Of a stretch of 64,000 bases of DNA, positions 6,258 through 64,000 are shown one piece after another. The DNA comes from Guyparkeria sp. SCN-R1 (GTDB lineage: Bacteria > Pseudomonadota > Gammaproteobacteria > Halothiobacillales > Halothiobacillaceae), in the NCBI RefSeq assembly GCF_003932495.1, contig NZ_QZMT01000009.1:1-64000 (forward strand), given 5' to 3'. The notes beneath the pieces are model-generated. The model was not told where the DNA came from. It saw only the letters and a list, made by a program, of their open reading frames with translations, and did no database searches. Within the stretch, counting starts at the first letter, position 1. Every line of letters begins with the position of its first letter. The position numbers and the translations under genes are program-made.

Positions 6258-6334
<77 letters not shown>

Positions 6335-6340
6335 GATTCT

Positions 6341-6374
6341 AAAAAGCCCCGGGGCCTGGCCTCGGGGCTTTTTT
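6341..6374 (+). terminator. Rho-independent terminator of tRNA-fMet copy 1
   Basis: An AAAAAGCCCCG / CGGGGCTTTTTT hairpin begins six bases after the tRNA CCA end. The A-run on the 5' side makes it usable in both directions. Confidence 0.85.
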
Positions 6375-6413: not shown

Positions 6414-6417
6414 CTTG
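6414..6417. repeat. Left CTTG target-site duplication
   Basis: CTTG directly abuts the left inverted repeat of the 338-bp element and is repeated at 6756-6759 directly after the right inverted repeat. Confidence 0.7.
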
Positions 6418-6755
6418 GGAAGGTCTGCACGAATGGCATACCGCTCTGCGCGCCTTGAGCCGGGCAGATGCACGGCGCTCGTCCGCCGCGGAAGAGTCAT
6501 TCTCTTTCCAAGGACGAAACCGGATCGGCAGAACGCCGATCCGGCCGGCGCGAGCCGGCCCGAAGGGCGAGGTCCAAGGACGGACCTCGCGACGCAGCAG
6601 ATGTCCGGCTCAAGGCGCGCCCAGCGGGGCTTAGCGAGTCGCCCGTGCTCCGCGTTGCGCTGTCTTGACGTGGCCACCGGCACGCCGGTGACGCCGCGCC
6701 TGGATCACGAACGACTCGCCGAGCCAGAGTGATATCACATTCGTGCAGACCTTCC
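6418..6755. mobile_element. MITE-like non-autonomous element between two tRNA-fMet genes
   Basis: This 338-bp segment has perfect 18-bp terminal inverted repeats (GGAAGGTCTGCACGAATG at 6418-6435, its complement at 6738-6755) flanked by a CTTG duplication. A second inverted pair of 16 bp lies inside (6448-6463 and 6605-6620). Its core holds three consecutive perfect hairpins: 6520-6529/6535-6544, 6543-6549/6554-6560 and 6567-6575/6582-6590. No credible protein is encoded. The GGAAGGT ends and 4-bp duplication resemble IS5-family elements, so it is probably mobilised in trans by such a transposase; that family assignment is inference. Confidence 0.75.
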
Positions 6756-6756
6756 C

Positions 6757-6784
6757 TTGACAGCATTGCGGGGCTGCGTACAAT
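6757..6784 (+). promoter_or_regulatory. Promoter of the second initiator tRNA gene
   Basis: A perfect -35 TTGACA (6757-6762), 16-bp spacer and -10 TACAAT (6779-6784), followed by a GC-rich discriminator. The TTG of the -35 box is supplied by the right CTTG duplication of the neighbouring MITE. Confidence 0.85.
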
Positions 6785-6799
6785 GCGCGCCATACCAGA

Positions 6800-6876
<77 letters not shown>

Positions 6877-62017: not shown

Positions 62018-64000
62018 ACCCGCAACAACAGGCCGCCGTGCGGCACATCGACACCCCGCTGCTGGTGCTCGCCGGCGCGGGGTCGGGCAAGACGCGCGTG
62101 ATCGTCGAGAAGATCGTCCACCTGATCGAGTCCAAGGGCACGCCCGCCCGCGGCATCTGGGCGGTGACCTTCACCAACAAGGCCGCGCGCGAGATGGGCG
62201 AACGGATCGGCCAGCGCCTGCCTGCCGAGCGCCGTCGCGGGCTCAATATCTCGACCTTCCATACCCTCGGACTGAACCTGATCCGTCGCGAGATCCGCAC
62301 GCTCGGCCTGCGCCCGGGTTTCACCGTCCTCGACGCCGAAGACAGCCTCAACCTGATCAAGTCGCTACTGCAGCAGAACGAGTCGGCCGCGGGGATGATC
62401 GAGCCCAAGGAGGCCCAGTGGCAGATCTCGCAGTGGAAGAACGACCTGCTCACCCCAAAACAGGCCGCCGAGATCAGCGCCGACCAGGTCGAGGCGGCAT
62501 GCGCCTCGCTCTACAGCGACTACGCCCGGCAACTGACCGCCTGCAACGCGCTCGATTTCGACGATTTGATCAAGCGACCGGTCGAGTTGCTGCGCGACAA
62601 CCCCGAGGCGCGCGAGCGCTGGCAGCACCGCGTGCGCTACCTGCTGGTCGACGAATACCAGGACACCAACGCCAGCCAGTACGAACTGGTGCGCCTGCTG
62701 GTGGGCAAGCTGGGCCGCCTAACGGCAGTAGGCGACGACCACCAGTCGATCTACGCCTGGCGCGGGGCGCGCCCGGAGAATCTCTCCCATCTTGAGCGGG
62801 ACTTCCCCAATCTCACCACCATCAAGCTCGAGCAGAACTATCGCTCGGTGAATACCGTGCTGACCGCGGCCAACCAGCTGATCGCCAACGACCCGACCAC
62901 CCAGCCCAAGACCCTCTGGAGTGCGGTCGGCCCCGGCGAGGCACACCGGGTGCTGGTCTGCGACACCGCCGAAGACGAGGCCGAGCGCATTGCCACCGAC
63001 ATCCTGCACCGGCACTTCAAGGACGACTCGCCCTATCGCAACTTCGCGATCCTGTTCCGCGGCAACCACCAGGCGCGCCTGATCGAACAGCAACTGCGCA
63101 AGCTTTCAATCCCCTACATCCTTACCGGCGGTCAGTCGTTCTTCGAGCGCGCCGAGGTCAAGGACGCCATGGCCTACCTGCGGCTGATGGCCAACCCGTC
63201 CGACGATGCCGCGTTGCTGCGGATCATCAATACCCCGCGGCGTGGCATCGGCCCGACCACCCTCGAGCGCCTGGGCCAGATCGCCCGCGAACGTCACGTC
63301 CACCTGGGGGCCGCCGCCCGGTCGGTGACCGCCGCGCAACGGCTCGACACCCGCGTGCATCACCAGCTGACCCAGTTCCTCGACTGGCTGGACGCCACGC
63401 GGGGGCGCATGGACGAGCAGCCCGCGGCCGAGGCGATGCGCACGATGCTCGAGGAAATCGACTACTTCGGCTACCTGCGCGAGCAGGAAAACAGCGCCAA
63501 GGCCGCCGAGCGTCGCTGGACCAACCTGCAGGACTGGCTCGAATGGACCGAGCGGATCGCCGTGGACAACGACAGCGGCGAATCGCTCTCGCTGACCGAG
63601 CTGGTCCAGAAGATGAGCCTGCTGGGCATTCTCGAGCAGAAGACCCGCGACCAGGACGACAACGCCGTTCGCCTGCTGACCCTGCATGCCGCCAAGGGCC
63701 TGGAGTTCCCGCATGTCTATCTCACGGGCATGGAAGAGGATCTGCTGCCCCACCAGGACTGCCAGGAAGACGATCGGCTGGCCGAAGAGCGACGCCTGTG
63801 CTTCGTCGGCATCACCCGCGCCCAACGCAGCCTGACCTTCACGCTCACCCGGCGGCGGCGACGCTATGGCCAGTGGCGCGACATCCAGCCCAGCCGTTTT
63901 CTCGAGGAGGTCGAACCCGACCTGCTCCGCTGGGAAGGCATCGGCGTGCAGAAAAGCGAAGAAGAAAGCAAAGCGACCGCCGCCGAGGCAATGAACGCGA
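62005..64000 (+). CDS. rep: ATP-dependent DNA helicase Rep/UvrD family, cut by the window edge
   Basis: The reading frame runs from ATG 62005 to the window end with no stop (665 codons). It has the SF1A motifs in order: NPQQQAAVRHIDTPLLVLAG, AGAGSGKTR (Walker A), FTNKAAREM, LLVDEYQDTN (Walker B), VGDDHQSIYAWRGA, LEQNYRS, and VRLLTLHAAKGLEFPHVYL with EERRLCFVGITRAQ. The opening MQGLNPQQQAA and a FVGITRA end fit E. coli Rep, which helps replication forks past obstacles. About 10 residues or more are missing at the C-terminus. Confidence 0.9.
   Translation, partial: MQGLNPQQQAAVRHIDTPLLVLAGAGSGKTRVIVEKIVHLIESKGTPARGIWAVTFTNKAAREMGERIGQRLPAERRRGLNISTFHTLGLNLIRREIRTLGLRPGFTVLDAEDSLNLIKSLLQQNESAAGMIEPKEAQWQISQWKNDLLTPKQAAEISADQVEAACASLYSDYARQLTACNALDFDDLIKRPVELLRDNPEARERWQHRVRYLLVDEYQDTNASQYELVRLLVGKLGRLTAVGDDHQSIYAWRGARPENLSHLERDFPNLTTIKLEQNYRSVNTVLTAANQLIANDPTTQPKTLWSAVGPGEAHRVLVCDTAEDEAERIATDILHRHFKDDSPYRNFAILFRGNHQARLIEQQLRKLSIPYILTGGQSFFERAEVKDAMAYLRLMANPSDDAALLRIINTPRRGIGPTTLERLGQIARERHVHLGAAARSVTAAQRLDTRVHHQLTQFLDWLDATRGRMDEQPAAEAMRTMLEEIDYFGYLREQENSAKAAERRWTNLQDWLEWTERIAVDNDSGESLSLTELVQKMSLLGILEQKTRDQDDNAVRLLTLHAAKGLEFPHVYLTGMEEDLLPHQDCQEDDRLAEERRLCFVGITRAQRSLTFTLTRRRRRYGQWRDIQPSRFLEEVEPDLLRWEGIGVQKSEEESKATAAEAMNA

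Follow-up and report, generated by a model that had tools for sequence, protein, structure and literature searches.

Bacterial MITEs are usually seen as decayed insertion sequences with arbitrary interiors. The closest precedent for a mobile MITE of the IS5 type is MITEPsy1 of Pseudomonas syringae pv. phaseolicola, which, according to the part of its published account used here, has the end GGAAGGTCTGAAAAAGCC, duplicates CTAG or YTAA, is regarded as a derivative of ISPsy2, an IS5-family element, and was shown to be mobile by entrapment (PMC3189936). Its 18-nt ends, starting GGAAGGTCTG, resemble those of the element reported below, from which it differs in being only 100 nt long and in having six copies with identical ends, and that part of the account makes no mention of a conserved branched core (PMC3189936). 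Chunjie of Geobacter uraniireducens and QMITE2 of Coxiella burnetii are multicopy MITEs of about 190–235 bp, and in the portion of the source drawn on, the QMITE2 transcript is given a stable fold by single-sequence prediction (PMC10969869). The BRE repeats of Bordetella and Comamonadaceae, compared by description only, are GC-rich, scattered and present in overlapping host groups, as is our element, but are about 90 bp long and often tandem (PMC3110155). An ISPa67-type element of the IS5 family (853 bp in its Raoultella plasmid copy) has ends (G)GGTCTGTTG and a CTAG duplication; it has a different end sequence from the family reported here and, unlike it, encodes a transposase, and its ends are close to those of the Azotobacter, Pseudomonas and Halomonas relatives described below.

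We analyzed a window of 64,000 nt of Guyparkeria sp. SCN-R1, to which all coordinates refer, and which contains the following features around a short element lying between two initiator tRNA genes:

6258–6334, plus strand: first tRNA-Met(CAT) gene (ARAGORN), with a terminator-like hairpin of its own at about 6341–6374
6414–6417, no strand: left target duplication CTTG, a single CTTG in seven empty sites
6418–6755, plus strand: the MITE in its long form, 338 bp (perfect 18-bp ends, CTTG duplication, empty sites in relatives, copy number)
6418–6435, plus strand: left terminal inverted repeat, from which the outer stem runs on to about 6446
6738–6755, minus strand: right terminal inverted repeat, with the outer stem starting at about 6727
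6756–6759, no strand: right target duplication CTTG, overlapping the -35 box (direct reading and empty-site comparison)
6757–6762, plus strand: -35 box TTGACA of the second tRNA-fMet gene (direct reading; conserved in the empty-site genomes)
6779–6784, plus strand: -10 box TACAAT after a 16-bp spacer (direct reading; conserved in the empty-site genomes)
6800–6876, plus strand: second tRNA-Met(CAT) gene, a tRNA-fMet gene (ARAGORN)

The sequence-only reading had described a 338-bp segment with perfect 18-bp ends and CTTG flanks between two initiator tRNA genes. Direct reading bears this out, with both ends of the element having the sequence GGAAGGTCTGCACGAATG and being identical at 18 of 18 positions, and ARAGORN places a tRNA-Met(CAT) on either side. 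That it encodes no protein also holds, as the 114–118 aa open reading frames that overlap the element cross its palindromes into the flanks. We located the metG-tRNA region in other Guyparkeria genomes and compared the site there. A 267-bp element with CTTG on each side occupies the same site in G. hydrothermalis R3 (G002), whereas at that point seven genomes (G001, G004, G005, G006, G007, G008 and G009) carry one uninterrupted CCCTTGACAG. Because these seven related genomes hold an empty site with one CTTG, the CTTG repeats of the window are a target duplication, as had been proposed, and from the filled orthologue and the empty sites together it follows that the window element is an insertion into the -35 box. 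It is thus a genuine insertion, common to SCN-R1 and G. hydrothermalis. The CTTG target sits within the -35 box of the second tRNA-fMet gene, TTGACA is restored on the gene side by the duplication, and the insertion leaves the second tRNA promoter intact. From its place between two tRNA genes and beside a promoter, the element could have been taken for a conserved component of the tRNA operon or for regulatory DNA of the host, but the promoter is intact in seven relatives that lack it, and the family is scattered over the genome; the empty sites refute this reading, to which we give next to no chance. Neither finding named beforehand as fatal to a mobile element was made, whether a single-copy sequence with no empty site or conservation as part of the tRNA operon: copies are many, and this same locus is empty in relatives. 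Elsewhere in the window, ARAGORN reports a 91-nt tRNA-Gly(GCC) on the minus strand at 62667–62757, where the Rfam tRNA model is silent at its gathering score; this is probably a false call.

The suggestion that the element may be one of several copies agrees with 68 BLAST matches to it in the SCN-R1 genome, where GGAAGGTCTGCACGAA, allowing at most two mismatches, occurs 73 times, versus 2 when the pattern is reversed as a control; chance is thus no explanation. Near-full-length copies number at least 25, a count made up of 20 delimited copies, the window copy, and further end pairs about 265–278 bp apart. The usual copy length is 264–267 bp (canonical about 266 bp). Copies in SCN-R1 are almost all intergenic, and coding-like open frames are hit by 3 of 72 insertion sites versus 70% of random sites. 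The target consensus of the family is YTAR, with four identical flanking bases at 19 of 53 sites versus 9% for mismatched flank pairs. Matches to the element are found in nine of the ten other Guyparkeria genomes, and the similarity search returned none from any genome of another genus in the genome set examined. When the genome collection was scanned for paired ends, 53 stretches were obtained, 52 from Guyparkeria or other Halothiobacillaceae records and one from Nitrosomonas europaea ATCC 25978. Mapping to 1.82 Mb of G. hydrothermalis showed about ten SCN-R1 sites to be empty or nearly so, among them one with a 7-bp scar and one with an end remnant, and the closest aligned copies in one genome differ by about 2.3%. 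The family is genus-wide and polymorphic between species. The family therefore moved after the species split but not in a very recent burst, and no transposition burst is under way. At 338 bp, with 18-bp inverted ends, no transposase gene, many copies, a target duplication and empty sites, the window element has the properties that define a MITE.

Several individual sites show other kinds of change. The same site carries the element in opposite orientations in two species (L246:13116–13388 and L063:540–803), as if it had been flipped by recombination between the element ends. At L057, SCN-R1 has a 92-bp form where Guyparkeria sp. WRN-7 (L099) apparently has a full 266-bp element, and both arms seem to have been lost in place. 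At the ends of G. hydrothermalis contigs C5 and C4 (L224 and L214), a copy matching L034 breaks the assembly, and relative to L034 each end of that copy carries the same pair of matched transversions. L112 and L119 were considered as one locus with an inverted element and rejected, since the sequence flanking L112 has a further match, at an empty place, within one and the same genome; they are probably paralogous loci.

An IS5-type transposase acting in trans had been put forward as the source of the element. Its ends are like those of the IS5 family and its 4-bp duplication is of the YTAR type (CTTG here, YTAR family-wide), as in the IS5 group. The SCN-R1 genome contains no match to PF01609, PF13586 or PF05598, nor to DDE_Tnp_1 or DDE_Tnp_1_2, and family and protein searches of the eleven genus genomes found no IS5-type transposase with matching ends; the genomes without one include two single-contig Guyparkeria genomes that carry copies. 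PF01609 (DDE_Tnp_1) is matched in 1 of the 11 genus genomes (G001), by a gene that was rejected as a partner because it lacks such ends, as were 18 PF01609 matches of Nitrosomonas; DUF772 is represented in the genus by no more than a fragment, in a single incomplete genome. Sharing ends with an autonomous element in the same genome is usual for a MITE, not obligatory, and here the same genome held no such element. A plasmid search by end sequence led to an IS5-family element on plasmid pACDW039_1 of Acidovorax sp. DW039, in which the ends GGAAGGTCTGCACGAATC and GGATTCTCTGCACGAATC, read inward, are flanked on both sides by TTAG, and whose protein has DDE_Tnp_1 and DUF772 domains. A related element of pADP-1 has ends GGAATCTCTGCACGAATC and GGATGGTCTGCACGAATC, with TTAG on both sides. 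Both resemble the MITE in their ends GGANNNTCTGCACGAATC and their TTAG duplications, but are about 1.2 kb long with a transposase gene, and positions 4–6 are mismatched between their two ends, whereas they match in the MITE. The autonomous insertion sequence with the same ends that the sequence-only reading called for was thus found on the Acidovorax plasmid and pADP-1, but not in Guyparkeria. Its proposal of a transposase acting in trans gains from these same-ended plasmid elements and from the YTAR targets, while no such enzyme was found in the genus; we infer, with good support, that an IS5-type transposase mobilizes the family in trans.

The transposase of the IS5 group would recognize the ends GGANNNTCTGCACGAATC and duplicate a 4-bp YTAR-like target, and because no transposase was found in the genus, its source would be a visiting plasmid or an insertion sequence that has since been lost. 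A different route would be a Y1 (REP-associated) transposase acting on a folded single strand of the element. The sequence is indeed palindromic, its single-stranded DNA folds well, and Y1 transposases are present in 6 of the 11 genus genomes, SCN-R1 included, but G004, G005, G006 and G008 hold element matches and no Y1 match. Moreover, a REP element moved by a Y1 transposase inserts without a target duplication; duplications are present here and, together with the IS5-type ends, suggest a DDE enzyme. We therefore consider the Y1 route very improbable. It is highly probable that the element is a non-autonomous MITE with a conserved branched fold along its full length, moved in trans by an IS5-group transposase. 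Against this stand the absence of an ongoing burst and the failure to find a matching transposase in the genus through which the family has spread.

The fold just mentioned occupies the interior of the window copy as follows:

6448–6621, plus strand: arm 1 hairpin, with the extra module in its inner part (fold z = -11.6; helix 2 of the family fold)
6470–6477, plus strand: 5′ half of the core motif, GCACGGCG in the window copy and GCAAGGCG in most copies
6518–6591, plus strand: extra module of about 74 bp with three hairpins (roughly 6520–6544, 6545–6558 and 6568–6589)
6590–6600, plus strand: 3′ half of the core motif, CGACGCAGCAG in the window copy and CAACGCNGCAG in most copies
6620–6629, plus strand: mini-hairpin CCC-AGC-GGGG between the arms, with CCC...GG conserved across hosts
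6628–6725, plus strand: arm 2 hairpin (single-copy fold; helices 4–9 of the family fold)

The window copy folds with z values of -11.6 and -11.9 on its two strands, and two other copies, as single-stranded DNA, with -9.7 and -10.9. RNAalifold on an alignment of 67 copies gave one closed shape, consisting of the outer stem, arm 1, the mini-hairpin and arm 2, in which 46 of 82 pairs have changes on both sides and 96.9% of cells are paired. Double-changed cells number 820, versus 281 ± 16 in shuffles, and sliding the partner columns by 1–3 destroys the covariation signal. In helix 2 (arm 1), 14 of 22 pairs are changed on both sides, and the family form of the core motif pair is GCAAGGCG...CAACGCNGCA. 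A full-length branched fold is thus conserved across the family. The match between the ends of each copy extends to positions 5–6 despite several types there (GG, AC, CC, TC); since the autonomous elements are mismatched at positions 4–6, transposase recognition probably does not explain this match. The interior of this MITE is not filler but its conserved part. The sequence-only reading was right that the element exists, but did not notice that it has a conserved fold, carries an added hairpin module, overlaps a promoter and belongs to a wider family.

The extra module of about 74 bases (6518–6591) is missing from most other copies, including the orthologous G. hydrothermalis copy. Related modules, 74–98% alike, are found in other G. 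hydrothermalis copies and in other genomes, and also on the backbone of a second subfamily. Recombination with another copy is the probable source of the three hairpins in the window copy, though the G. hydrothermalis orthologue could instead have lost them. A copy without arm 2 (L209) and 85–92-bp forms without both arms also occur; from these forms and the module, gains and losses follow helix borders.

To see how the pairing is maintained, we compared copies at orthologous sites (window/L150, L043/L126, L046/L127, L063/L246, L128/L201 and L034, with L112/L119 left out). Across these six orthologue pairs only, the arms have 25 changed pairs that are unmatched and none that is matched, whereas of the 10 in the outer stem 4 are matched and 6 are not. 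When different copies are compared, matched changes in the arms go from about 6% at 4–8% divergence to 55–67% at 20–35%, so that at equally low divergence arms at different sites compensate hardly more than those at the same site. Most simply, copies decay where they reside, and pairing persists along jumping lineages. Because single uncompensated changes erode the pairing of resident copies, selection would act on those source copies that transpose, and the fold would not be retained for any benefit to the host at individual sites. The small number of orthologue pairs and the near-equal compensation at low divergence weigh against this account, and it leaves the matched outer-stem changes (4 of 10) unexplained; these changes and the L063 inversion leave room for correction within the palindrome.

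Such correction could be taken further, with matched changes arising from mutation itself, by template switching or conversion between palindrome halves that copies arm onto arm. The four matched against six unmatched changes of the outer stem lie above the expectation for independent mutation, and the element inverted in place between L063 and L246 is a sign of end-to-end recombination. A strand test that used only those pairs predicted for both strands was biased against strand preference and was replaced by a symmetric test, in which rare states comprise 42 G.T versus 45 A.C and common states 19 G.T versus 10 A.C; recent mismatches thus have no strand preference, as a mutational origin would have it. 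However, correction in place should reach the arms too, and the 0 of 25 matched there at the same sites, set beside 55–67% over deep divergence, therefore counts against this origin. Two of the four stem cases (L034) derive from contig ends, and the fold is common to elements of other genera that have otherwise diverged in sequence. We regard a mutational origin as somewhat unlikely.

The common states of the same test bear on another possibility, that the core is a structured RNA or RNA-active element riding in the MITE and acting as a plus-strand transcript. Established wobble states favor the plus strand (most clearly in arm 1), and conserved bulge motifs inside covarying helices resemble functional RNA. 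The strand lean is weak overall, though, and absent among recent changes, both strands fold about equally well, and resident copies decay; a search of the element with Rfam models matched no known structured RNA family. A role as RNA therefore seems unlikely, and we keep to selection on the jumping copies as the preferred account.

The Nitrosomonas europaea ATCC 25978 element (L113:4972–5241) is multicopy, with about five near-full copies and many pieces in that genome, and has ends, size, fold and core motifs as in Guyparkeria. Most of its length cannot be aligned to the Guyparkeria element, although size and fold are the same, and it carries the motifs ATGCAAGGCG and CAACGCNGCAG at positions 52 and 99 (51–52 and 101 in Guyparkeria), which occurred together in 0 of 20,000 shuffles. 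A motif-pair scan of viral contigs gave eight stretches, of which three lie inside 265–275-bp palindromes. These three (L298:2163–2437, L301:5058–5322 and L304:1442–1708), in viral or prophage contigs, have the same core and fold; their ends are other than those of Guyparkeria, with those of L301 being IS5-group-like. A looser core pattern returned 80 stretches from viral contigs, 1 of the 72 new ones passing a weak inverted-end filter, and a further core pattern found nothing. Plasmid searches added elements from Variovorax, Azotobacter and Comamonas, and relatives in Pseudomonas aeruginosa and Halomonas were found through similarity to the Azotobacter element.

In nine elements compared, the core starts at position 53–57 and its helices covary, with 13 of 20 pairs double-changed and 35 such cells versus 11.8 in shuffles; these nine were chosen by motif, which biases the set for the motif, not for the helices, their position or the palindromic frame. 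The ends are IS5-group-like in Guyparkeria, Nitrosomonas and L301, read GGGTCTGTTGACG or GGGCCTGTTAACG in the types from Azotobacter and Variovorax, a sequence resembling ISPa67 with its CTAG duplication, and are of GAACCTGTT types in the remaining elements. We tentatively suggest that these elements might form a superfamily of structured satellite transposons in beta- and gammaproteobacteria, in which one branched, dyad-like core of about 265–275 bp, whose arm 1 holds a conserved bulge motif, is combined with the ends of several IS5-family subgroups. The core may then outlive changes of transposase and have a function of its own, for example in aiding end pairing or in binding a host factor.

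The earlier remark that the family could be undescribed is consistent with our finding no description of this family in the literature searched, outside of which lie most subscription journals and ISfinder. It is a genuine IS5-family MITE of a familiar type, from a family apparently undescribed in that literature. The surprising part is the conserved core common to elements with different ends: its pairing survives deep divergence even though copies decay in place, and it stands between the ends of different IS5-family subgroups. If this is true, the interior of a MITE would be a selected part of its spreading.
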